Assembly: GCF_022815645.1 (NCBI RefSeq) | Contig: NZ_JALGRO010000011.1 | Span: 1-64,000 of the forward strand | Length of the DNA stretch: 64,000 bases | Reading direction: 5' to 3' | Source: Curtobacterium sp. VKM Ac-2922 | GTDB taxonomy: Bacteria; Actinomycetota; Actinomycetes; Actinomycetales; Microbacteriaceae | Part shown: positions 9,994 through 26,683 of the stretch, piece by piece | Layout: the number at the start of each line of letters is the position of its first letter | How positions within the stretch are numbered: the stretch's first letter is position 1 | Made by a program: the position numbers and the translations under genes | The notes under the pieces: model-generated | Database searches by the model: none | Told to the model about the DNA's origin: nothing | Seen by the model: only the letters and a program-made list of their open reading frames with translations

Positions 9994-10661
9994 CCGATCC
10001 GATCCGCATCCTGCTCACCGACGACCAGGCCCTGTTCCGCGCGGGCCTGCGCGTCGTCCTCGACGCCCAGCCCGACATGGTCGTCGTCGGCGAGGCCTCC
10101 GACGGCGCCGAGGCGCTCGCACTCGTCCCGGATCTCCGGCCGGACGTCCTCCTGCTCGACATGCGCATGGCGGGCATGGACGGCGTCGAGACCGTCCGCC
10201 GGCTGTTCTCCGGTGCGGTCGAGGGCCCGCTGCCCCGCGTCGTCGTCCTGACGACGTTCGGCCTGGACCCGGCGGCCGCCACGGCGATCCGGCTGGGCGC
10301 GAGCGGGTTCCTGCTCAAGGACACCACGCCGCCGTTCCTGTTCGCAGCGGTCCGGGCGGTGCACGAGGGCAGCTCGGTGATCGCGCCGAACGACCTGTCG
10401 CAGCTGTTCGGCGCCGACGTCGAACGTGCACCGGCCCCGCAGCCGTCCGAGTTCCAGACGCTGACCGACCGCGAGCGCATCGTGTTCGGGTGGGCGTCGC
10501 GCGGGCTGTCGAACGCGGAGATCGCGGCGCGGGAGTTCGTCACCGAGTCCACGGTCAAGACGCAGATCTCGAGCATCCTCGGCAAGCTGGCGCTGCGCGA
10601 CCGGGTGCAGCTGGTCGTCTACGCGCACGACCACGGCCTGGCCGGCGCCCGCGACGCCTAG
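9990..10661 (+). CDS. LuxR/NarL-family response regulator
   Basis: This 223-residue regulator has a receiver domain with acidic pair D11-D12, phosphoacceptor D57 (LLLDMRM), a TTF switch residue region and K in FLLKD, followed by a LuxR helix-turn-helix (LTDRERIVFGWASRGLSNAEIA, then TESTVKTQISSILGKLALRDRVQ). It is the cognate partner of the overlapping histidine kinase. Targets are not evident; the genes on either side belong to catabolic operons with their own regulators. Confidence 0.92.
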   Translation: MTDPIRILLTDDQALFRAGLRVVLDAQPDMVVVGEASDGAEALALVPDLRPDVLLLDMRMAGMDGVETVRRLFSGAVEGPLPRVVVLTTFGLDPAAATAIRLGASGFLLKDTTPPFLFAAVRAVHEGSSVIAPNDLSQLFGADVERAPAPQPSEFQTLTDRERIVFGWASRGLSNAEIAAREFVTESTVKTQISSILGKLALRDRVQLVVYAHDHGLAGARDA

Positions 10662-11101
10662 TCCGCGGCAGGCGCCTGGTCGGCAGTAGGCGCTGCCCCG
10701 GCAGCCGGGCCCTGGAACCCGATCAGCCAGGTGACCCCGAAGCGGTCACGCACCTGCCCGTCGTGGTCCCCCCACGGCCGGAGCGTCAGCGGGTCGAGCA
10801 CCGTGCCGCCCTCGGCGAGCGCGTCGAACCACCGCGCCGAGGTCGCCGCGTCCGCCGCTCCGAGCAGCGCGAACAGCACGCCGTCGACGACCGTCGGGTG
10901 CTCGCCGTCAGCGGTGTCGGCCGCGAAGACGTCGACCGGTCCGCGCAGCTCGCCGTGGGCGATCGCGTCGCCCGGCCCGTCCTGACGACCGAACTCGGCG
11001 AAGGTGTGCCGCTCGACCGTGCCGCCGAACACCTGCTGCCAGGTGTCGAGGGCGTCGGCGGCGGTTCCGGAGAAGTGGAAGTACGGCACGGGTGCGCTCA
11101 T
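10658..11101 (-). CDS. VOC-superfamily (PhnB/glyoxalase-like) protein
   Basis: This 147-residue protein begins MSAPVPYFHFSGTAADALDTW and contains VFGGTVERHTFAEF, DVFAADT and WGDHDGQVRDRFGVTWLIGF, the pattern of PhnB-like vicinal-oxygen-chelate proteins. Metal-binding residues are only partly recognisable, so catalysis is uncertain. It follows the triosephosphate-isomerase paralogue by 21 bases on the same strand and may be the last gene of that operon. Its stop overlaps the response-regulator stop on the opposite strand by four bases. Confidence 0.85.
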   Translation of the reverse strand: MSAPVPYFHFSGTAADALDTWQQVFGGTVERHTFAEFGRQDGPGDAIAHGELRGPVDVFAADTADGEHPTVVDGVLFALLGAADAATSARWFDALAEGGTVLDPLTLRPWGDHDGQVRDRFGVTWLIGFQGPAAGAAPTADQAPAAD

Positions 11102-11122
11102 GCAGGAACCGTACTGCTGCGC

Positions 11123-11899
11123 TCAGCCGAGGGCCAGGACCTCGTCGAGCACCTGTTCGACGGCGGCGGGGTCGTGGGCGAACCGGCCGAGGAACAGTCC
11201 GCCGATGCGTCCGTGGCCACGCGTCAGCAGACCGGGTCCGGCGCTGCCCCCGTACAGGACGGTGCTGCCCGCCAGCTCGGGCCGCGTCGCCAGGTGCGCC
11301 GCCAGACGGTCGAGCACCGTGACGACGTGCGCGTCCGGCGCGGGCTCGGCCGCACCGATCGCCCACACCGGCTCGTAGGCCACCGTGAGTGGTCCGGTCA
11401 CGCCGGCGGCGTCGGACTCGGACAGCGCGCGGTCGAGCTGCGCGGTCACGTCCGACACGGCGTCGTCCGTCGCTGCGTCGTCCGCACGGGAGGGCCGGGT
11501 CGTCTCACCGACGCAGACCAGCGGCCGCAGGTGGTTGCGGAACGCCGCGTGCACCTTGGCGGCGACGACCGCGTCCGTCTCGTGGAACAGCGCGCGGCGC
11601 TCGGCGTGCCCGATCTCGACCAGGTCGACCCCGATCTCGTGCAGCTCGGCGCCGGAGACCTCACCGGTGAAGGGACCGTCGTCGGCCCACCCGAGGTCCT
11701 GCGCGGCCAGCTGCACCCCCGACCCTGCGAGCAGGTCGCGCACGGGCACGAGCGCCGGGAACGTCGGCGCCACGAACAGCGTCGCCGCGCCGGACAGCAC
11801 GGCCGGGTGCCGACGGGCGATGTCCGCGACGGCACCCGCCCACGCCAGGGTCCGGGCGTGCGAGAAGTAGGTCTTCAGCGAGATCCCGATCGTGGTCAC
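11123..11899 (-). CDS. Triosephosphate-isomerase paralogue, probable tetrulose-phosphate isomerase
   Basis: This 258-residue TIM-fold protein keeps the catalytic Lys (ISLKTYF), the electrophilic His (VEIGHAERR, where glycolytic enzymes have GHSERR) and the catalytic Glu in AYEPVWAIG, then GGSAGP. The usual N-terminal GNWKMN is changed. TpiA paralogues next to Dak kinases are known as L-erythrulose-1-phosphate/tetrulose-4-phosphate isomerases (LerI of Mycolicibacterium, EryH of Brucella). The start GTG overlaps the Dak stop, so coupled expression with the kinase is likely. A housekeeping role is less likely given the context and divergence. Confidence 0.8.
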   Translation of the reverse strand: MTTIGISLKTYFSHARTLAWAGAVADIARRHPAVLSGAATLFVAPTFPALVPVRDLLAGSGVQLAAQDLGWADDGPFTGEVSGAELHEIGVDLVEIGHAERRALFHETDAVVAAKVHAAFRNHLRPLVCVGETTRPSRADDAATDDAVSDVTAQLDRALSESDAAGVTGPLTVAYEPVWAIGAAEPAPDAHVVTVLDRLAAHLATRPELAGSTVLYGGSAGPGLLTRGHGRIGGLFLGRFAHDPAAVEQVLDEVLALG

Positions 11900-13602
11900 G
11901 GCGCCACCGCGGCGACGATCAGCGCGAAGGACACGGCTCCCGGGTCCGCGGTGCCGACGGCCTGCTCGGCGTGGGTCCGCGCGCGGCCCTTGCGCGGGAG
12001 CATCGCGGCGGTCGCGTCGGCGGCCGAGCGCGCCGCATCGGACGCCGCGCGCCAGGCCTGTGCAACGGGTGCTCCGCCGTCGAGCTGCTGACGCAGGACC
12101 GTGTCGAACGGCACGAGCGCGTCGACCATCGTCTTGTCACCGGGGACCGCGCCGAAGGCCAGCACCGCTTCGGTGGCGGCGTGCACCGCGTCCGCGACGC
12201 GCGCACCCGTCGGACGCTCGTCGTCGCCGAGGACGCGACCCAGGGCCTCCAGTCCGGCTCCCCAGATCGCGCCGGAGGTGCCACCGGCCCGGTCGGACCA
12301 GGCGTCCGCGGCGATCCGCAGCACGCTCCCCGCACCGGCACCGGCCTCGACCGCATCGGCGGCTGCGGTGTCGGCCGCGTGCGCACCGCGCTGCATGCCG
12401 ATGCCGTGGTCCCCGTCCCCGGCAACCGCATCCAGCCGGCCGAGGTCGTCGGCGTGCTCGTCGACGACGGCTCGGGCGGCGGCGAGGGCGCGCGCGACGG
12501 ATGCGCCGACCTGGCGGGAGTCGTCGGACGCGGGGCCGATGGTGACGGCCTGCAGGTCGGCTTCGGCCTCGGCCGCGGCGACCGGCTGCTGGGGCAGCGC
12601 ACCGCCCTTGCGGAACGCAGGGGTGTCGGCCGGCGCTGCCCACAGGGCCTCGAGTTCGTCGTCCAGCCAGAAGAGCGTGAGCGACACCCCGGCCATGTCG
12701 AAGCTCGTGACCAGCTCGCCGACCTCGGGTTCGACCAGCACGGTGCCGGCGTCGACGAGCAGCCGCTGCGCCGAGCGGTAGACGACGAAGAGCTCCTCGT
12801 ACTTGACGCTGCCCAGCCCGTTCAGGATCGGCACCACCCGTGCGCCGTCGACCACGACACCGTCGGGGAGCTCGTCGAGCAGCCGCGACACCAGCAGCTG
12901 GGCCAGTCCGTCGGCAGTCGGCACGTCGGTCTCGTCGATCCCGCGTTCGCCGTGGATGCCCATGCCGACCGCCATCCGACCGGCCGGGACCGTGAACAGC
13001 GGGTCTGCTGCGCCGGGCAGCGAACACCCGGAGAACGCGACGCCGAACGAGCGGGTCCGGTCGTTCGCCCGCTCGGCGACGCCCGTGACGGCGTCCAGGT
13101 CACGCCCTTGCTCGGCTGCGGCACCCGCGACCTTGAACACGCAGAGGTCCCCGGCGATGCCGCGACGCTCGTGCGGCCGGTCGGCCGGGGCAGAGACGAC
13201 GTCGTCCGTCACGCGGACGGTCCGGACCGGGATCCCGTCCTGCTCGAGCGTGCGCGCCGCGGCGTCGAAGTTCAGCACGTCACCGGCGTAGTTGCCGTAG
13301 CTGAGCAGCACGCCGCCGCCGTGCTCGGACGCGCGGGCCACCCCGGCGACCTGCTGGGCGCTCGGGCTGGCGAACAGGTTGCCGAGCGCGGCCCCCGCGG
13401 CCAGCCCCGGGCCGACCAGCCCGCCGAACGCCGGGTAGTGGCCGGAGCCACCGCCGATGACGACGGCGACGGTGCCGTCCGGGCTCGTGGTCGACCGGGC
13501 GACGCCACCGTGCACCCGACGCACCCAGCGGTCGTTCGCGGCGACGAAGCCCTCGGTCGCCTGGTCGGCGAAGTCCGCGGGGTCGTTGAACAGTCGGGTC
13601 AT
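11896..13602 (-). CDS. Fused DhaK-DhaL (Dak1-Dak2) ketose kinase
   Basis: This 568-residue ATP-dependent kinase has a DhaK half (residues about 1-335) with GGGSGHYPAFGGLVG and covalent H217 in VGMGIHGERG, a linker, and a DhaL half with RLDAVAGDGDHGIGM and GGTSGAIWGAGLEALG. Fused enzymes use ATP directly and phosphorylate dihydroxyacetone, erythrulose or related ketoses. The pairing with a TpiA paralogue is the LerK/LerI arrangement, which favours a tetrulose. The start overlaps the MFS stop by ATGA. Confidence 0.9.
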   Translation of the reverse strand: MTRLFNDPADFADQATEGFVAANDRWVRRVHGGVARSTTSPDGTVAVVIGGGSGHYPAFGGLVGPGLAAGAALGNLFASPSAQQVAGVARASEHGGGVLLSYGNYAGDVLNFDAAARTLEQDGIPVRTVRVTDDVVSAPADRPHERRGIAGDLCVFKVAGAAAEQGRDLDAVTGVAERANDRTRSFGVAFSGCSLPGAADPLFTVPAGRMAVGMGIHGERGIDETDVPTADGLAQLLVSRLLDELPDGVVVDGARVVPILNGLGSVKYEELFVVYRSAQRLLVDAGTVLVEPEVGELVTSFDMAGVSLTLFWLDDELEALWAAPADTPAFRKGGALPQQPVAAAEAEADLQAVTIGPASDDSRQVGASVARALAAARAVVDEHADDLGRLDAVAGDGDHGIGMQRGAHAADTAAADAVEAGAGAGSVLRIAADAWSDRAGGTSGAIWGAGLEALGRVLGDDERPTGARVADAVHAATEAVLAFGAVPGDKTMVDALVPFDTVLRQQLDGGAPVAQAWRAASDAARSAADATAAMLPRKGRARTHAEQAVGTADPGAVSFALIVAAVAP

Positions 13603-17949: not shown

Positions 17950-18205
17950 GGACGCCCGTGCCGCTGACCCGAACCTCGGCACGGGCGTCCGTCCCCGCAT
18001 CAGGACGACGACTCCCCGGCAGGCCGCTGACCCGAACCTCGGCACGGGCGTCCGTCCCCGTATCAGGACGACGACTCCCCGGCAGGCCGCTGACCCGAAC
18101 TTCGGCACGGGCGTCCGTCCCCGTCACAGAGGATCAGGACGTCGCGCCCCCAAGGGCCGCTGACCCGAACCTCGGCACGGGCGTCCGTCCCCGTATCAGG
18201 ACGAC
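17950..18205. repeat. 63-bp tandem repeat array (four copies)
   Basis: Units beginning CCGCTGACCCGAAC start at 17961, 18024, 18087 and 18157, giving spacings of 63, 63 and 70 bases. Each carries CGGCACGGGCGTCC, and the first copy pairs perfectly with GGACGCCCGTGCCG at 17950-17963 to form a 14-bp stem. The period of 63 keeps a frame open but I see no start or ribosome site, so I regard it as non-coding. It fills the gap between the FadR-type gene and the operon promoter and may terminate the former. Confidence 0.8.
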
Positions 18206-18210
18206 GCGCG

Positions 18211-18927
18211 TCAGGACGTGTGGGACGCGTCCGCGCGAGACCGCTCACGCACGGCGTCGATGTGCGCCCGCATCGCCGCGACCGCCGCAGCTGGATCGAC
18301 CGCCAGCGCGTCGATGATCGCCTGGTGCTCGTGCACGGCACGGTCGGTGTCGTCGTCCCCGCCCTCGACCATCTGCCGCATCCGGTGCACCCGGGTGGTG
18401 ATGGCCTCGGACATCTCCTGCAGGAACGGGTTGCGCGTCGCGTCGAACAGCACCTGGTGGAACTGCCAGTCGCTGCGGAAGAACCGGGCCATCGTCTCCT
18501 CGGACGCGGCCCCCGCGCCCACCCGCGCGATGTCGGCGGCGACCTCGGCCTGTTCGGCGAGCGCAGCCTCCAGTCGGGCGCGGAGCGCCACCACGTCACC
18601 GCGAGCCGCCAGGTCGACCGCACCGGTCTCGACGATCAGGCGCGCGTCGAACAGTGCCTCGAGCTGCTCACCGGCGAGCGGCGGCGCCACCCGGTAGCCC
18701 TTGTTCGCCTCGCGCACGACCAGACCGGTCCGTTCGAGCTGCACGAGCGCTTCGCGCACCGGGGTGGGCGAGACGCCCAGGGTGCGCGCCAGACCGTCGA
18801 TCGACAGGCGCATGCCCGGTTCGACGTCGTGGCCCATCAGCACGTCGAGCACCCGGTCGTAGACCCGGTCGCGCAGCCCGCGCTGCGTGATCCGTTCCGC
18901 TCCGAAGCCGGGCACCGTGGTCGTCAC
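18211..18927 (-). CDS. GntR-family (FadR/FCD type) transcriptional regulator
   Basis: This 238-residue protein has a winged helix (RGLRDRVYDRVLDVLMGHD, then TLGVSPTPVREALVQLERTGLV) and an all-helical FCD ligand domain with a metal-type site (SDWQFHQVLF; VHEHQAIIDAL). FCD regulators bind sugar acids and organic acids, which fits control of the operon immediately downstream. The GTG start at 18927 has AGGA upstream; the frame is open further up but without a better start. It lies 37 bases after the S9 peptidase stop and may be read from that operon too. Confidence 0.9.
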   Translation of the reverse strand: MTTTVPGFGAERITQRGLRDRVYDRVLDVLMGHDVEPGMRLSIDGLARTLGVSPTPVREALVQLERTGLVVREANKGYRVAPPLAGEQLEALFDARLIVETGAVDLAARGDVVALRARLEAALAEQAEVAADIARVGAGAASEETMARFFRSDWQFHQVLFDATRNPFLQEMSEAITTRVHRMRQMVEGGDDDTDRAVHEHQAIIDALAVDPAAAVAAMRAHIDAVRERSRADASHTS

Positions 18928-18964: not shown

Positions 18965-20830
18965 TCACGCCAGACGCGCCGACAGGAAGTCCACCATGCT
19001 GCGCACCAGCAGCGCACGCGAGGACGCCCGTCGGTACTCGTGGCCCTCCCCCGCCAGCTCGACGTACTCGACGTCGTGCGCGCGGTCACGGAGCGCCGTG
19101 ACGAGCTGCTCGGCCTCGCCGACGGGCACGTTCGTGTCGAGCTCGCCGTGCACGACCAGCATCGGCGCCGTGATGTCGTCGACCGCCCGCATCGGCGACA
19201 GCGACGCCAGCAGCGCCGCGTCGTCCACCGGATGGCCGTACTTGGTCGCCGCGGCTGCTGCGATCCACGGCTCGGTGTCGCGGTAGAAGGTCGCGAAGTC
19301 GCTCATCCCGCACACCGCCACGCCCGCTGCGAAGACGTCGGGCGTGAACGCGAGCGACGCGGTGGTGGCGTACCCGCCGTAACTGCGGCCCTCCACCGCC
19401 ACGCGCGACTGGTCGGCGTGCCCGTTCGACACGAGCCAGCGTGCGCAGTCGACGACGTCGGCCAGGGCGTTCCACCGCAGGGCCAGGTCGTCCGCGTGCA
19501 CGAACGCGGTACCCGACCCGGACGATCCGCGGATGTTCGGGGCGAACACGGTGATGCCCGCCGCGGCGAGCGCCTGGTGCTGCGGCGAGAAGGTCGGCCG
19601 CTCCTGCGACTCCGGGCCGCCGTGCAGGTGCACCATCGCTGCACGACGGACGGGAGGCCCGGTGTCGGTGGCAGGCTCGGCCTGCGTCGACGGGGTGGTG
19701 CCGTCGACCGCCGGGTACAGCCAGCCGGTCAGCTCGAGGCCGTCACGGGCGGTGAAGCGTTCGAGGCTGGGGTCGACGAGAGCGACGTCGGGCAGCGTCG
19801 GCACGTCGGTGACCCTGGCCCACGTCAGGGCGTTCGTGTCCAGGCGCCAGAGTTCGCGCGGGCGGGTCGGGCCCTCGACGGCCAGGATCACACTCCGGCC
19901 GTCGCGGCTGAGCACCGGGTCGGTGACGACGGCTCCGGGCAGGTCCGGCACGGGTGTGCGCGAGGCGTCGTGCGTGTTGATCAGCTCGAGCTCGCTGCGC
20001 CCGGCGACGTTCCAGCCGAGCAGCAGCGTGCGGCCCGCGTCGTCGGCGTCCAGGAACTCCAGCTCGGCGTCGTCACGCGCGACGATCGGTCGGGGCCGTC
20101 CACGCCAGCCGTGCGGGCCGACCGGCTGCGCGACGAGCTGGCGGCGGGGTGCCCCGGCCTCGGTCGCGACGTAGGCGACGAGGGGGCTGGTCTCGCTGGC
20201 GGGCGACGGCCGCAGGAACGCGATCTCGGCCGAACCGGATGCCGGGTCGGTCAGCAGCGGGTGGCTCTCGTCGGTCAGCCGGTCGACCGCGACGACGAAC
20301 TCCTGCCCGCGCTGCCCGTCGCCGATCACGACCAGGCGTTCCTCGACCGACAGGTCGAGCACGTGGATCAGCTCGCCCACCGCCAGGTCGTCGCGGTCGC
20401 CGGACACCGGGTCGACCAGGTACGCGCGGGTGGGCTGCTCGGGCTCGGTGGACGGCAGCGTGATCACGACACGGTGTCCGCTGCGGCTCCACGGCCCGAG
20501 TTCGGCGTGCTGGTACCGGGAGCCCGCGATCTGTGCGGCGTCGGTGCCGTCGGGGCGAACCACCCAGACCTGCTGCTTCACACCGCCGTCGGTCGCGATG
20601 GCCACCGCGAGCCACTCACCGTCGGACGACCACGAGACGCGGATGACCGGGTCCTCGGACAGCCGGATCCGCATCGGCTCGGACGGGGTGCCGTCGACGA
20701 CGACGTCCTGCACGAACACCTCGGGGACCCCGTGCCGGTCGCTGACGAACGCGACGCGCCGGGCGTTCCGGGTCATCGTCGGTCCCCACGACCCCCATGC
20801 TGCGGTGAGCGCGTCGCCCAGGTGCGTCAC
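18965..20830 (-). CDS. S9 prolyl-oligopeptidase/acyl-aminoacyl peptidase-like protein
   Basis: This 621-residue protein has an N-terminal beta-propeller (repeats such as RRVAFVSDRHGVPEVFVQD and WSSDGEWLAVAI) and a C-terminal alpha/beta hydrolase with nucleophile Ser in EGRSYGGYA, Asp in HGELDTNVPVGEAEQ and His in AGEGHEYRR. S9 enzymes cleave short peptides and act on blocked or amidated ends. The GTG start overlaps the amidotransferase stop. It has no signal peptide, so it is cytoplasmic. Within the linker, codons for TDTGPPVRRA coincide with half of the genome's palindromic element (19643-19665). Its operon suggests turnover or maturation of the peptide made by its neighbours. Confidence 0.9.
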   Translation of the reverse strand: MTHLGDALTAAWGSWGPTMTRNARRVAFVSDRHGVPEVFVQDVVVDGTPSEPMRIRLSEDPVIRVSWSSDGEWLAVAIATDGGVKQQVWVVRPDGTDAAQIAGSRYQHAELGPWSRSGHRVVITLPSTEPEQPTRAYLVDPVSGDRDDLAVGELIHVLDLSVEERLVVIGDGQRGQEFVVAVDRLTDESHPLLTDPASGSAEIAFLRPSPASETSPLVAYVATEAGAPRRQLVAQPVGPHGWRGRPRPIVARDDAELEFLDADDAGRTLLLGWNVAGRSELELINTHDASRTPVPDLPGAVVTDPVLSRDGRSVILAVEGPTRPRELWRLDTNALTWARVTDVPTLPDVALVDPSLERFTARDGLELTGWLYPAVDGTTPSTQAEPATDTGPPVRRAAMVHLHGGPESQERPTFSPQHQALAAAGITVFAPNIRGSSGSGTAFVHADDLALRWNALADVVDCARWLVSNGHADQSRVAVEGRSYGGYATTASLAFTPDVFAAGVAVCGMSDFATFYRDTEPWIAAAAATKYGHPVDDAALLASLSPMRAVDDITAPMLVVHGELDTNVPVGEAEQLVTALRDRAHDVEYVELAGEGHEYRRASSRALLVRSMVDFLSARLA

Positions 20831-22623
20831 CGGACGCCCTGTCGCTGCAGCCACATCTCGATCAGCCCGAGCTGCCACAGCGCGTTCGCGCCGATCTCGG
20901 TCCGGGTGGCGTTCGGGTCGGCGAGCATCCGTTCGACCGTACCGGGATCGAACAGGCCGCGCTCGCGGGCCTCGGGGGCGTGCAGCGCCTGGCGCACACG
21001 CTCCAGGTACGGCCCCTCGAGCTGTCGGATCGCGGGCACCGGGAACGACCCCTTGGACCGGTCGACGATCGCATCGGGGACGATCCCGCGCGATGCCCGC
21101 TTCATGACGCCCTTGCCGCCGTCGGCCAGCTTGAGCTCGGGCGGGATCGCGCCGGCGAGCTCGACGAACTCGTGGTCGAGGAACGGCACGCGCGCTTCGA
21201 GCCCCCACGCCATCGTCATCGTGTCGACGCGCTTGACCGGGTCGTCGACGAGCATGATCGTCGTGTCGCTGCGGAGTGCGGCGTCCACGCTCGTCTCGGC
21301 ACCGGGGCGGGCGAACTCCGCGTCGACGAACGCCGACGGGGTGTCGTCGTCGCTCCGCCACCGCGGACCCAGCAGTCCCTGCAGCGCCGGCCACCGGCGG
21401 TCCATGAACACCGACCGGTACGCCTCGGCCGCCTGGTCGCGGGGCACGTCGGCGAGCGGCGGGTACCAGCTGTACCCGGCCAGGACCTCGTCGGCGCCCT
21501 GTCCGGACTGCACCACCTTGACGTGCTGCGAGACCTCTTGCGACAGCAGGTAGAAGGCGACGCAGTCGTGGCTGACCATCGGTTCGCTCATCGCGGCGAC
21601 CGCACCGTCGATGCCGTCGAGCAGCCGCGACGACGGGATGTGGATGCGGTGGTGGTCCGTGCCGAACTGCCGCGCGACCAGGTCGGAGTACGCGAACTCG
21701 TCGCCGGACTCGCCTCCGGCCGCCTCGAAGCCGATGCTGAACGTCGCGAGGTCCTGCTGACCGGCCTCGGCGAGCAGCGCCACCACGAGCGACGAGTCGA
21801 TGCCGCCGGACAGCAGCACCCCGACGGGGACGTCGGCGACCATGCGGCGCTCGACCGCGGTGCGCAGCGACCCGATGAACGCCTGCTGCCAGTCCTGGTC
21901 GGTCCAGTCCGACCGGGCCGGGTCGCGCTCGAACCGGGGCTCCCAGTACACGGTGTCGTGCGTGGAGCCGTCGGGCTCGACCACGCGGACGGTCGCGGGT
22001 GGGAGCTTGCCGACGCCGGACAGGATCGTTCGGGGTGCCGGGACGATCGAGTGGAAGGACATGTACGACGCGAAGGCGACGGGGTCGATGGACGTGTCGA
22101 CGGACCCGCGGTCGCCGTTCCCCGCCAGGATCGCGGGCAGGGAGCTCGCGAAGCGCAGGCCCCCGGGCACCGCCGCGACGTAGAGCGGCTTGATGCCGAG
22201 GCGGTCGCGCGCCAGCACCAGGCGGCCGCTCGCGTGCTCCCAGATCGCGATCGCGAACATCCCCACCAGGTGGTCGACGAACGCCGTGCCCCACTCGGCG
22301 TACGCCGCGACGATCACCTCGGTGTCCGAGGTGGAGTCGAACGTGTGGCCCTTGCCGTGCAGCTCGTCGCGCAGCTGCCGGTAGTTGTAGACCATGCCGT
22401 TGTAGGCGATCGTCAACCCGAGCCGTGACACCACCATCGGTTGTGCGCCGGCGGTCGACAGGTCCACGATCGACAACCGCCGGTGCCCCAGGGCGACCGG
22501 GCCGCGCGCCCACAGTCCGTCGCCGTCCGGCCCGCGGTGCGTCAGGCACCCGGTCATCCGGGCCACGGCCGCGACGTCCGGGGTGGTGCCGTCGAAGCGG
22601 ATCTCGCCGGCCAGTCCGCACAT
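20827..22623 (-). CDS. Asparagine-synthase-type glutamine amidotransferase
   Basis: This 598-residue protein starts MCGLAGEIRF, with Cys2 as glutaminase nucleophile, followed by HRGPDGDG, RLSIVDL and NGMVYNYRQLR. The synthetase half has the ATP pyrophosphatase loop VLLSGGIDSSLVVALL and the SGQGADEVLAGY element. It amidates a carboxylate with ammonia from glutamine. Relatives make asparagine or amidate peptides, as in N-acetylglutaminylglutamine amide synthesis. It overlaps the ligase by one base (TGATG) and the peptidase by four, so the substrate is more likely the ligase product than free aspartate. Confidence 0.9.
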   Translation of the reverse strand: MCGLAGEIRFDGTTPDVAAVARMTGCLTHRGPDGDGLWARGPVALGHRRLSIVDLSTAGAQPMVVSRLGLTIAYNGMVYNYRQLRDELHGKGHTFDSTSDTEVIVAAYAEWGTAFVDHLVGMFAIAIWEHASGRLVLARDRLGIKPLYVAAVPGGLRFASSLPAILAGNGDRGSVDTSIDPVAFASYMSFHSIVPAPRTILSGVGKLPPATVRVVEPDGSTHDTVYWEPRFERDPARSDWTDQDWQQAFIGSLRTAVERRMVADVPVGVLLSGGIDSSLVVALLAEAGQQDLATFSIGFEAAGGESGDEFAYSDLVARQFGTDHHRIHIPSSRLLDGIDGAVAAMSEPMVSHDCVAFYLLSQEVSQHVKVVQSGQGADEVLAGYSWYPPLADVPRDQAAEAYRSVFMDRRWPALQGLLGPRWRSDDDTPSAFVDAEFARPGAETSVDAALRSDTTIMLVDDPVKRVDTMTMAWGLEARVPFLDHEFVELAGAIPPELKLADGGKGVMKRASRGIVPDAIVDRSKGSFPVPAIRQLEGPYLERVRQALHAPEARERGLFDPGTVERMLADPNATRTEIGANALWQLGLIEMWLQRQGVR

Positions 22624-25172
22624 CAGCGTTCTCCTTCGGGTCCGACGATCCAGGTGTCCTTGGCGCCGCCGCCGCGCGAGGAGTTGACGACCATGCTGCC
22701 CTCGGGCGCGACCCGTGTCAGCGCGACGTCGGCCAGGTGGACGTCGTCCGGCCCGGTCCCCGTGACGTAGACGAACGCGCGCAGGTCGACGTGCCGCGGA
22801 TCGAGTCCGGCCGGCCCGATGGTCGGGTGCGAGGACAGCTGCACCACTTCCTGTCCGACCCATGCCGACGGGTCCGCGGCGATCCGTCGGCGGCGTTCGG
22901 CGACCTCGGGAGCGCTGGCGCTCGGGCCGATCAGGACGTCACGCCCGCCCTCGCCGTCGACGGGCTTGGTCACGAGTTCGCCGACGCGGTCGAGCACCGA
23001 CAGCCGCTCGCCCTCGAGCTCGGGTCGGTAGGTCGGAACGGACTCGAGCAGCGGCTTCTGCTCGAGGTAGTACCAGATCAGGTCGGGGACGTTGACGTAC
23101 ATCGCCTTGTCGTCCAACAGGGCGTTGCCGGGGGCGTTCGCCAGGTACACGCCGCCAGCCTGGGCGACGTCGAGGACCCGCGGCCCCAGGTCCGGCAGGC
23201 GGTCGTTCGTCAGGGCGCGGACGTCACGGTCGATCCGCAGGTAGAGCGCGTCGAGGACCTGACCGCTCGGCGCGTGCACCACGTGGCCGTCGACGACGTC
23301 GAGGTCCGACTCGGTCACCAGGTGCATGCCGGCACCGTCCGCCAGCCGCCGGTGCTCGTACCAGGCACCCGCGCCGGGACCGTCGGTCAACAGCGCCAGC
23401 ACCGGGTCGGAGGCTCCGGTCACCGCCGTCGCGTTCGTCCGGAGCGTCGTGCGGAGCCGCTCCGGCACCGTGGCCGGGTCACGCAGACGGGGTGGCCGTG
23501 GGGCTTCGGGCACCACGGCGTCCATCAGCTCGCGCAGCGCCAGCCCGTAGGCGACGCCGGACGGCGACCGCACGTTGTCCTCGAGCACCCGCCAGCCGCC
23601 GAACTCGTTGCGGACCAGGTCGAAGCCGATCACGGGCGCCCGAACGGCGGTGGCGGGGAGCCGCGCGGCGTCGGGGTCCCAGCCGTTCGCCCCGACGAAG
23701 TCGTCGTCGTCCATGGCGCCGTCGGTCACGATGCGCCGCGGCCCGTAGGCGTCGCGCAGGAACAGCTCGATCGCACGAGCCCGCTGCACCAGTCCGGCCT
23801 CGAGCTGCGCCCACTCGTAGGCACTGACGGTGCGCGGCACCAGGTCGCAGCCGAACGCCTGGACGCCGCCGTCCACCACGAACCCGACCTCGTGCTCGCG
23901 GGTCCAGACGTCGCGTGCGGCGCAGTGCTCGATCGTGGTGTCGACGTCCCACCGGCCGAAGTACGCCGCCAGGTCGCGGAACGCCGGTCGGGGGCGTGCC
24001 CCGGGCCCGACGGCCTCGTCGCCCGCACGCACCCGGTACGACGGGATCGCGGCGACGTGGTGCTCGTCGCGGCCGGACGGGGTGCCCGCGGTGTCCTCGA
24101 CCACCTGCGCCACGACGTCGTCGAGCTCGCCGCGTTCGGCGTACGCCGTGCGCTGCCGGTCGGTGGAGTTGCCCCGGGCCAGGGTGTCCTCGAGCAGGGC
24201 CGTCACGGTGCCCCAGTCGCCGAGTTCTTCGAGCTGCGGCCGCAGCCGTGACACGAGCTGCCGTACGGCGACCTCGGCCGGCAGCCGCTCCGGGTGCTGC
24301 CCGAGTCCGAGCAGGTCGCCGCTCAGGCCACTGCGGGCGGCCTGCCACATCGCCGCACGGTGCAGCGGCTCGCTGCGTGGGTGCCACTCGGCGCCGGACT
24401 CGACGGCCACCTCGGCCCGACGGACGGCGGCGCGGAACAGTCCGGCGATCAGCACGGCGTCGTCGACCACCGGCGTGGCATCGCAGACCCGCAGCTCGAG
24501 CGTCGGAGCGTGCGAGGACGGTCGCACGTCGAAGTACGCCATCTTCTTGTCGGCGATGACCCCGGACGCGATCAGGTCGTCGAGCACCTTGTCGTACTCG
24601 GCCGCGTTGTCGACCCGACCGAAGCTGCCGGCGGACGGCCAGCGCTGCCAGATGATGCTCCGGAACGACGCGTACCCGGTGTCCTGCCCGTTCCAGAACG
24701 GACTCGACGCGCTCAACGCGAGCAGTGCCGGCAGCGTCGGTGCCACGCGCTGGGCGATCTGCACCGCCAGGTCGCGGTCGCTCACCCCGACGTGCACCTG
24801 CAGCCCGCAGATGAGCTGTTCGTCGACGAGCATCCGGTACTGCTCCTGCATCCGACCGAAGCGCCCACCGCTCGTGAGCTCGAAGTCGGCGTACTCGGAC
24901 CGTGGCGCGGTGCCGGCGGCCGCGATCGTGACGCCCGACGGCGCGATCGCTGCCGCGAGCTCACGCCGCAGGTCGACGATCACCCGGCGCAGGTCGTCCA
25001 GGGTCGTCACCACCGGGGTGTTCGTCTCGATGGTGGTCCGCTGCAGTTCGGCGCCGAAGCGGTCGGCGGGCAGCTTGGGCAGAAGGCGCGGGGCCTTCGC
25101 GGAAAGTCGGCCGGACTCGAGGTCGATGAGGTGCAGCTCTTCCTCGGCGCCGAGCGTCAGCTCTGCACTCAT
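22623..25172 (-). CDS. GCS2 carboxylate-amine ligase fused to a circularly permuted ATP-grasp ligase
   Basis: This 849-residue two-enzyme protein begins with a YbdK/GCS2-type glutamate-cysteine-ligase-like domain (residues 1 to about 370: GAEEELHL, CGLQVHVGVSD near 122, YFDVRPSSHAPTLELRVCD near 213). It continues with a circularly permuted ATP-grasp domain (from about 395: DNVRSPSGVAYGLALREL, GNALLDDKAMYVNVPDLIWYY, SSRGGGAKDTWIVGP). Both families form amide bonds from carboxylates using ATP. A fusion suggests two successive ligations building a short peptide or peptide-like compound. It heads the operon with the amidotransferase and S9 peptidase. Product unknown. Confidence 0.88.
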   Translation of the reverse strand: MSAELTLGAEEELHLIDLESGRLSAKAPRLLPKLPADRFGAELQRTTIETNTPVVTTLDDLRRVIVDLRRELAAAIAPSGVTIAAAGTAPRSEYADFELTSGGRFGRMQEQYRMLVDEQLICGLQVHVGVSDRDLAVQIAQRVAPTLPALLALSASSPFWNGQDTGYASFRSIIWQRWPSAGSFGRVDNAAEYDKVLDDLIASGVIADKKMAYFDVRPSSHAPTLELRVCDATPVVDDAVLIAGLFRAAVRRAEVAVESGAEWHPRSEPLHRAAMWQAARSGLSGDLLGLGQHPERLPAEVAVRQLVSRLRPQLEELGDWGTVTALLEDTLARGNSTDRQRTAYAERGELDDVVAQVVEDTAGTPSGRDEHHVAAIPSYRVRAGDEAVGPGARPRPAFRDLAAYFGRWDVDTTIEHCAARDVWTREHEVGFVVDGGVQAFGCDLVPRTVSAYEWAQLEAGLVQRARAIELFLRDAYGPRRIVTDGAMDDDDFVGANGWDPDAARLPATAVRAPVIGFDLVRNEFGGWRVLEDNVRSPSGVAYGLALRELMDAVVPEAPRPPRLRDPATVPERLRTTLRTNATAVTGASDPVLALLTDGPGAGAWYEHRRLADGAGMHLVTESDLDVVDGHVVHAPSGQVLDALYLRIDRDVRALTNDRLPDLGPRVLDVAQAGGVYLANAPGNALLDDKAMYVNVPDLIWYYLEQKPLLESVPTYRPELEGERLSVLDRVGELVTKPVDGEGGRDVLIGPSASAPEVAERRRRIAADPSAWVGQEVVQLSSHPTIGPAGLDPRHVDLRAFVYVTGTGPDDVHLADVALTRVAPEGSMVVNSSRGGGAKDTWIVGPEGER

Positions 25173-25336
25173 GTCTGGAACCTACCGAAGGGACGCCCGG
25201 GTGCGCCCGCGTCGGACGAGATCGTCTCGCGCCCGTAACAATCTGGTGGTGCGTGGCCCCGGAGTCCGTCGCTGTGGGCGGTCGCGGGGTACAGGCGCGC
25301 TGGGAGCGAGCGCGCGCGGCACCGTAGGAATGAGGG

Positions 25337-26683
25337 ATGACGGCGACCGCGTTCTGCTTGCACGCCCTCGGGTCCAGCTCCGAGGAGTTCGCCACGATGC
25401 GGACCCGCCTGGCGGGGACCCTCGACCTGATCGGCATCGACCTGCCGGGGTTCGGTCGTTCGTCCGCCGCGACGGGCACCAGCGTCGAGGAGATGGTCGA
25501 ACGCGTCGAGCGTGCCGTCGGCCGCAGTGGCGCGACCGAGTGGGTGCTGATCGGCCACTCGATGGGCGGGAAGGTCGCCTCGGTCGTCGCGTCGCGGACG
25601 ATCGACGGCTCGAACGGGCTGTTCGGGCTGCGCGCCGTCGTGCTGCTCGCCGCGTCGCCGCTGTCGCCCGAGCCGATGGACGACGAACGCCGCAAGACGA
25701 TGCTCGACTGGGCGGCGGACGGTGAGATCGGGGCCGATGAAGCCGACACGTTCGTCACCGCGAACACCGACGGCCCCCTGCCGCCGGAGCCGTCCGCGAT
25801 GGCCGTGCACGACGTGCAGCGCGCCGACCCGCGGGCCTGGACCGACTGGCTCGTCCGTGGCAGCCGCGAGGACTGGTCGGCCGAGTTCCCGCCGAACCCC
25901 GTGCCCGCACTGGTGCTGGCCGGCGCGTCGGACGGTGACCTCGGACCCGAGGCGCAGCGCACCCTGAACCTGCCGCACTGGCCGAACGGCGAGTTCGACG
26001 TCGTGCCGGGCGCCGCGCACCTGCTGCCGTGGGAGCGCCCGGACCAGGTCGCCGAGCGCATCCGTGCCTTCTGGGAGCGCCGGGTCGCACCGAGCCCGGT
26101 CGTGCCGCCCACGACCGTGCGCGTGATCGCGTCGCCCCGTGTCAGCGCCCGGACCCGCGGGATCCTGGCCGTCCGCGCGCTGGCGGACGACCCCGGCGCC
26201 GAGCCCCGGGTGCTCTCCGCACAGCAGCTGACGACCCTGCGTGCGGTCGCCCGGGTCGTGGTGCCGCAGGACGGCCTGCAGGTCGACCTCGCCCTGCGCG
26301 TCGACGCCCAGCTCGCCGCCGGCGCGGGTGACGGCTGGCGACCGGACGGGCTGCCCGTCGACGTCGAGGCGTACCGCGCCGGACTCGATGCGCTCGCACC
26401 CGAGGCCGACCGGGGTGACGTCCACCTGACGGCCGTGCTCGATGCGGTCACCCGGGGCGAGCACGAACCCGCCGCCGGATCCCTCGACGCGGCGCAGCTG
26501 CAGGCCTGGGCCGAGGACGCCAGCGTCGACCTGGTCAAGCAGTGGGTCGCACACCCCGCCACGATGGCGGAGATCGACTACGACGGCTTCGCCAACGGTG
26601 GCGACGGCGTCCGCAAGCAGGGCTTCCTGCTCCTCGGAGCGGGCCAGCGCGAAGCATGGGAACCGGCGGGAGCCACACGATGA
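25337..26683 (+). CDS. Alpha/beta hydrolase fused to a gluconate 2-dehydrogenase subunit 3-like domain
   Basis: This 448-residue protein joins two domains. Residues 1 to about 255 are an alpha/beta hydrolase with an LHALGSSSEEF oxyanion region, nucleophile Ser in LIGHSMGGKVAS and late His in PGAAHLLPW. Residues about 290-448 resemble the gluconate 2-dehydrogenase subunit 3 family (LSAQQLTTLRAVARVVVPQDG; AHPATMAEIDYDGFANGG). No Tat or Sec signal is present, unlike exported subunit 3 proteins. It overlaps the GMC oxidoreductase by ATGA, so the subunit-3 part probably partners that enzyme while the hydrolase may open a lactone or ester. Confidence 0.82.
   Translation: MTATAFCLHALGSSSEEFATMRTRLAGTLDLIGIDLPGFGRSSAATGTSVEEMVERVERAVGRSGATEWVLIGHSMGGKVASVVASRTIDGSNGLFGLRAVVLLAASPLSPEPMDDERRKTMLDWAADGEIGADEADTFVTANTDGPLPPEPSAMAVHDVQRADPRAWTDWLVRGSREDWSAEFPPNPVPALVLAGASDGDLGPEAQRTLNLPHWPNGEFDVVPGAAHLLPWERPDQVAERIRAFWERRVAPSPVVPPTTVRVIASPRVSARTRGILAVRALADDPGAEPRVLSAQQLTTLRAVARVVVPQDGLQVDLALRVDAQLAAGAGDGWRPDGLPVDVEAYRAGLDALAPEADRGDVHLTAVLDAVTRGEHEPAAGSLDAAQLQAWAEDASVDLVKQWVAHPATMAEIDYDGFANGGDGVRKQGFLLLGAGQREAWEPAGATR

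Follow-up and report, generated by a model that had tools for sequence, protein, structure and literature searches.

A probable actinobacterial peptide-amide operon that pairs an amidotransferase of the N-acetylglutaminylglutamine amide type with a fused GCS2 and circularly permuted ATP-grasp ligase

Curtobacterium sp. VKM Ac-2922 contains a conserved three-gene operon, and the best reading of it is a ligase replacement, found in many actinobacteria, in a pathway of the N-acetylglutaminylglutamine amide (NAGGN) type. The operon lies in the window, the whole stretch of 64,000 nucleotides analysed here (contig NZ_JALGRO010000011.1, positions 1 to 64,000). In the known NAGGN pathway the ligase Ngg, with an N-terminal GNAT and a C-terminal ATP-grasp domain, makes acetyl-Gln-Gln, AsnO uses glutamine and ATP to amidate the C-terminal carboxylate of this peptide, and the pool is presumably adjusted by a peptidase. 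At the window locus a fusion of a GCS2 ligase and a circularly permuted (CP) ATP-grasp ligase would take the place of Ngg, with the NAGGN-type amidotransferase retained, and the sequence comparisons favour, with moderate confidence, such a swapped-ligase pathway to a peptide amide, the product being probably related to NAGGN but other than it.

The operon is a minus-strand trio, 25172-18965 (-), in the order ligase, amidotransferase and S9 peptidase. The first gene (22623..25172, -) encodes a fused double ligase of 849 aa, which contains a GCS2 domain (YbdK / gamma-glutamyl-cysteine ligase-like; residues 7-283, 24324..25154, -; PF04107, 5.9e-52) and a CP-ATP-grasp domain of type 2 (residues 446-822, 22707..23837, -; PF14403, CP_ATPgrasp_2, 3.4e-96). 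The closest named relatives of this ligase belong to Curtobacterium spp., with identities of up to 90%; the leaf isolate Frondihabitans sp. Leaf304 also has the fusion. The second gene (20827..22623, -) encodes a NAGGN-type (AsnO-like) glutamine-dependent peptide amidotransferase of 598 aa (TIGR03104) with the Pfam domains GATase_6/7 and Asn_synthase, and the third (18965..20830, -; GTG start) an S9 prolyl-oligopeptidase-family peptidase of 621 aa (PF00326, 3.6e-45), on which no signal sequence is evident by eye. The ligase and amidotransferase genes meet at TGATG, a 1-base overlap, and the amidotransferase and peptidase genes at GTGA, a 4-base overlap; coordinates, junctions and Pfam domains thus bear out the overlapping three-gene architecture described in an earlier note on this DNA. 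A sigma-70 promoter scan of positions 25100-25400 found nothing. A gene for a GntR/FCD regulator (18211-18927, -) lies about 37 bases beyond the stop codon of the peptidase gene. Membership of this gene (start near 18927) in the operon is judged unlikely, because C. aurantiacum (L037) keeps GntR-, TIM-barrel- and dehydrogenase-like genes, named there by eye from their sequence starts, together even though the amidotransferase and S9 genes are gone from the locus; it probably belongs to the cluster of TIM-barrel and dehydrogenase-like genes. GntR-like genes, also recognised by eye, are near five other loci without Ngg and three with it, which is a weak lead. Four 63-base direct repeats, with 70-98% identity to the first, are located between the TIM-barrel and GntR genes (17960-18218).

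Both ligase domains show the motif residues of their families. The GCS2 domain scores 351.5 bits against NF010041 of NCBIfam (cut-off 332), where it is named glutamate--cysteine ligase, and matches 1r8g (YbdK) in the PDB; its residues G8, E10, E11, E12, H127, R217, E226 and R228 are kept in 31 linked GCS2 proteins with at most one exception each. The CP-ATP-grasp domain matches 3n6x (1.7e-76), an entry named putative glutathionylspermidine synthase, and E531, D532, N533, K736, P737, G740, G742, G743, D796, L797, R798, N830, S831, S832, G834-G836, K838 and D839 are kept in 21 linked copies, again with at most one exception each. Degenerate ligases, a case that the earlier note had allowed for, were rejected, since both domains have their motif residues and relatives conserve them. 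Both domains are in a single open frame in 67 of the 70 loci that have the two upstream of the amidotransferase; of the other three loci, L042 is broken and two belong to family f18. To our knowledge, characterised GCS2 enzymes act on the gamma-carboxylate of glutamate, and we know of no settled natural substrate for the YbdK-type enzymes, the best solved relatives of this domain; GCS2 specificity is not readable from sequence.

Ngg (TIGR03103) was not found in the window's genome, where the best score is 27 bits against a cut-off of 569. A phylum sample of 296 genomes contains 31 with a TIGR03104 match and a class sample of 316 genomes contains 93, the union being 115 different genomes. With Ngg counted as present at E <= 1e-60, 62 of these 115 have an Ngg match, each within 0.9 kb of the amidotransferase by coordinates; two of the 62 (G189 and G279) have cut or split copies below the Ngg cut-off. 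One genome (G349) shows Ngg without a TIGR03104 match. The 53 genomes with no Ngg match show a different arrangement: a GCS2 gene is located upstream of the amidotransferase, on the same strand and within 3.6 kb, in 46 of them, GCS2 and/or CP-ATP-grasp is upstream in 48, and S9 is downstream in 39, while in five more the contig ends within 1.1 kb. No full ligase is beside the amidotransferase in five of the 53 genomes: G409, G443, G460 and G577 have S9, G460 also has a CP-ATP-grasp fragment, and G567 has neither ligase nor S9. Around Ngg loci, neither GCS2, CP-ATP-grasp nor S9 was found in the 21 surroundings examined (of 62), some of them cut by contig ends and the 1.5-kb loci left out; the contrast in GCS2 (46/53 vs 0/21) gives p 8e-13 in Fisher's test, with relatedness ignored. 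These counts leave out the second amidotransferase copy of G466 (L202) and an Ngg locus with no amidotransferase match (L203).

Linkage of GCS2 or CP-ATP-grasp with the amidotransferase is present in eleven families of the phylum (f1, f4, f5, f6, f18, f39, f42, f81, f88, f89 and f107). Family f5 is probably Streptomycetaceae, as it groups in the tree with Streptomyces fungicidicus and Embleya, and f89 is probably Frankia, from the gene layout given in excerpts of PMC5563000. Among 42 loci of named ligase relatives, the amidotransferase is downstream in 38 (one cut by a contig end), and 36 of the 38 also contain S9. The survey of conserved neighbourhoods that had been proposed as a check of the operon finds it recurring across actinobacteria. 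Three loci of family f18 (L114, L115 and L118) show a DUF1028 protein downstream in place of S9, confirmed by Pfam for L118 and by similarity for the others, and a hydrolase role for it is possible. Three amidotransferase copies of the NAGGN type (L212, L202 and L160) have no known ligase directly upstream on their own strand.

The amidotransferases of the two arrangements have key synthetase motifs in common. At 179 positions the same residue is conserved to more than 95% in both the 28 Ngg-linked and the 58 GCS2/CP-linked proteins, and M.EPM.SHD.V.F.LLS, VVQSGQGADE, KRVD.MTM and KG.FPVP are common to both groups. The groups are told apart by 14 positions (113, 261, 282, 385, 405, 514, 517, 532, 533, 574, 576, 578, 579 and 581), of which five fall in 574-581 and position 385 belongs to a conserved GY.W stretch. 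The window copy has KGSFPVP, and the other copies shown have KGYFPVP. The shared positions suggest that the C-terminal part of the acceptor is of one kind in both groups and that its N-terminal part differs; the acceptor may nevertheless differ, because of the 14 separating positions and the KGSFPVP of the window copy.

In the tree, one clade contains 58 amidotransferases, all but one from the class, with the Ngg-linked ones around it (SH-aLRT 98). This clade includes 53 GCS2-linked proteins, one linked to CP-ATP-grasp alone and four with neither full ligase; in a second tree, 18 rows of the GCS2/CP clade have a support of 98/98. The amidotransferases of f18 and f42 fall outside the 58-member clade, and their GCS2 proteins belong to other subfamilies, with 25-33% identity to the main type. 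A single split is present in 0% of 200 bootstrap trees and the careful tree favours more than one change; when all GCS2/CP-linked amidotransferases are held to one clade, p-AU is 0.115, so that a single origin is not rejected. By these trees the ligase module was possibly exchanged more than once.

The substrates, order of bonds, product and osmotic role of the pathway would be as follows. The carboxylate that GCS2 would phosphorylate is most likely the glutamate gamma-carboxylate, and the enzyme would then couple it to the amine of a first residue. The CP-ATP-grasp domain would then phosphorylate the carboxylate of this first residue and add a second one, most likely glutamine, in the manner of GshA plus GshB. 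In the third step AsnO would adenylate the C-terminal carboxylate and convert it to a carboxamide with ammonia from glutamine, and in the fourth the S9 peptidase would degrade or recycle the resulting N-blocked compound. The pathway would thus yield a small peptide amide without net charge, at best guess a gamma-glutamyl one, acting as a compatible solute; a gamma-glutamyl peptide is proposed because the GCS2/ATP-grasp pair repeats the logic of glutathione synthesis and its motif residues are intact. Some amino-acyl and acylamino-acid-releasing peptidases act on N-blocked peptides. The best PDB match of the S9 protein is 5l8s, an amino-acyl peptidase, and the matches that come next include acylamino-acid-releasing enzymes such as 1ve6. 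The S9 residues S483, D565 and H597, which we take from family knowledge to be the catalytic triad, are each kept in at least 26 of 27 copies. Excerpts of PMC2588565 and PMC6376114 describe GCS2 enzymes as coupling a carboxylate, usually the gamma-carboxylate of glutamate, to an amine after phosphorylation, and ATP-grasp enzymes as likewise going via an acyl phosphate.

A peptide-amide pathway built from two ligase domains, an amidotransferase and a peptidase had been proposed in the earlier note, and this proposal is supported; its second part, that two peptide bonds are made, does not hold as a general rule, because no CP-ATP-grasp match adjoins the GCS2, amidotransferase and S9 genes of Streptomyces fungicidicus (L205, CNQ36_RS33395 to RS33385) and of Embleya (L206). 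More tentatively, and with less than even odds, nearly half of the sampled actinobacterial NAGGN-type loci might make not NAGGN but members of an undescribed class of gamma-glutamyl peptide amides, an amidated solute resembling glutathione of the form gamma-Glu-X-Gln-NH2, or gamma-Glu-Gln-NH2 where there is only GCS2; the ligase module would then have been replaced ahead of a single conserved capping enzyme.

The product could instead be NAGGN itself, if the swapped ligase made Gln-Gln or acetyl-Gln-Gln and another enzyme provided the acetylation. This is unlikely, although the amidotransferase motifs common to both groups would fit it and acetyltransferase genes are present beside the operon in two lineages. 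An FR47-type GNAT of 304 aa is found in 14 of 40 searchable named loci (L017 and L043, which are too short, are left out of the count): it comes after S9 in 13 loci of the Curtobacterium type and directly after the fusion in the 14th. An unrelated GNAT of 141 aa is near the operon in 18 of the 26 f89 loci without Ngg, on the same strand in 17. Acetylated products, NAGGN included, are therefore possible for some lineages. Against NAGGN as the general product, the two GNATs differ from each other, which makes neither of them a constant component of the system; the FR47-type GNAT has no match in the window's genome at E <= 0.001, in a search run without a positive control; and characterised GCS2 enzymes, as far as our knowledge of the family goes, use the glutamate gamma-carboxylate.

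A redox thiol, cofactor or signal in place of a bulk solute is just as improbable. It would agree with the glutathione-synthesis logic of GCS2 plus ATP-grasp and with the name that NCBIfam gives to the first domain, but the amidotransferase comes from an osmolyte family and no thiol-related partner was recognised among the recurring neighbours of 36 loci without Ngg and 15 with it, whose flanking reading frames were called with a home-made gene caller and grouped in clusters of 4 or more loci. Among the recurring neighbours of the same loci, no osmotic gene was recognised either.

That the GCS2-CP fusion works independently of the amidotransferase and only shares an operon with it is still less credible, given how the two are distributed in the window's family. 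Of the 199 genomes sampled there, 19 contain the fusion (full in 18, partial in one) and 20 the amidotransferase; the two are adjacent in the window's order in 17, so that the operon association is more than chance; for co-occurrence, Fisher's p is 1.1e-19, with relatedness ignored. The 17 of 19 fusions that directly precede the amidotransferase, and the recurrence of the linkage in eleven families of the phylum, argue against independent functions. The other side is given by intact fusions that lack the amidotransferase: two of the 19 in the family sample (G681 and G733), as well as the named loci L022, L034 and L037. Three of the 20 amidotransferase genomes in turn lack the fusion (G592, G630 and G707), and fusion and amidotransferase can thus part. 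Two of the three genomes with the named loci have no amidotransferase at all, one of these two being a MAG, by a search in which two control genomes returned their known copy. The third case, C. aurantiacum (L037), has an amidotransferase copy of 56% identity on a different contig, where no ligase adjoins it; at the L037 locus (10001-13535) the amidotransferase and S9 genes are absent and the fusion is followed directly by a GNAT gene. In five genomes of the family sample (G606, G630, G667, G727 and G777) a close GCS2 match (59-67%) lacks the CP-ATP-grasp half, and in three of the five a single TGA falls within the match. These matches likewise speak for a fusion with its own role, as four of the five genomes, all but G630, are without TIGR03104.

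A plain asparagine synthetase with incidental neighbours was rejected as barely conceivable: although the amidotransferase is the sole full-length match of its kind in the genome (the other is a 23-bit piece) and exceeds the cut-off of the generic asparagine synthase model TIGR01536 with 430 bits, it reaches 902 bits (1.3e-271, cut-off 570.1), twice as much, against TIGR03104, the model for N-acetylglutaminylglutamine amidotransferase, SGEGSDE of E. coli AsnB is SGQGADE in the window copy and the members shown, and the genome contains GatB over its cut-off with no AsnRS over cut-off (best match 215 bits vs 343). The 215-bit match is probably AspRS. In the GatB route asparaginyl-tRNA is made by transamidation, which makes asparagine synthetase dispensable for translation, and with GatB present and no AsnRS over cut-off asparagine for translation can be made on tRNA. 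These scores answer the doubt, raised with the first description of the operon, that the enzyme was simply the cell's asparagine synthetase. The Cys2 (MCG) and the SGGIDSS loop reported in the same description are intact in the sequence; both are features common to the whole superfamily.

A replaced ligase in a NAGGN-type pathway thus remains the favoured reading. A literature search found no paper on a ligase-swapped variant, and the survey of Iyer et al. 2009 may already list the neighbourhood. The annotation "N-acetylglutaminylglutamine amidotransferase" is given even beside GCS2, as in Streptomyces fungicidicus, and 53 of the 115 actinobacterial genomes with the amidotransferase have no match to the NAGGN ligase. 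If the swap is real, many actinobacteria would produce a peptide amide not yet described, and a concrete pathway would be available for GCS2 and CP-ATP-grasp, two families with few known natural substrates.

Among known systems, operons of ATP-grasp, alpha-E, transglutaminase and Anbu genes, reportedly covered by Iyer in 2009, share with the window operon an ATP-grasp ligase of the circularly permuted kind. The immediate neighbours scanned at the window locus (AsnO, S9, GntR, TIM barrel, dehydrogenase-like protein and alpha/beta hydrolase) include no alpha-E, transglutaminase or Anbu gene, and the partners of the window ligase are instead GCS2, AsnO and S9. Such operons are described in excerpts of PMC6376114. 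Asparagine synthetase B resembles the window amidotransferase in its glutaminase domain with Cys2 and its synthetase domain with SGGxDSS, and differs from it in the half score, in the GEG motif and in the stretch that aligns with the aspartate site. Glutathione is made by GshA and GshB, or by the fused GshF. The window ligase resembles this type of synthesis in that a carboxylate-amine ligase with the glutamine-synthetase fold comes first and an ATP-grasp ligase second, in one protein as in GshF, with the motif residues of the GCS-type domain intact and conserved; it differs in that the first domain is of the GCS2 family, the second is CP_ATPgrasp type 2, not GshB-type, and the ligase is coupled to an amidotransferase.

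The closest system is the NAGGN pathway of P. aeruginosa and S. meliloti. Passages of PMC8070244 give PA3459-PA3461 of P. aeruginosa as an amidotransferase, a GNAT-family ligase and a glutamyl aminopeptidase, and report that deletion slows growth in 0.5 M NaCl. The S. meliloti locus shows asnO and ngg adjacent, with no peptidase annotated beside them. According to excerpts of PMC8146288, NAGGN was isolated from an actinobacterium, Micromonospora provocatoris, and both asnO and ngg are reported for its genome. In Casuarina Frankia, as given in PMC5563000, AsnO is more than 60% identical to others, and the supposed Ngg, placed after a peptidase, is less than 15% identical. A ligase swap would explain the low value, and the Frankia "Ngg" may be a small GNAT. 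The window operon shares with the NAGGN pathway the TIGR03104 amidotransferase family, the same synthetase-site motifs, a two-domain ligase adjoining the amidotransferase and, as in P. aeruginosa, a peptidase in the set. The view that the operon matches no known pathway needs to be qualified, its amidotransferase being of the NAGGN type at 902 bits. The differences are in the other two genes: GCS2 and CP-ATP-grasp, in this order, are present instead of Ngg (TIGR03103), with its GNAT and then ATP-grasp domains; the ligase gene is upstream of the amidotransferase at the window locus and downstream in the NAGGN pathway; and the peptidase is S9 at the window locus and M42 (TIGR03106) in the NAGGN set, as at the Ngg locus L107, which contains an M42 protein over the TIGR03106 cut-off.
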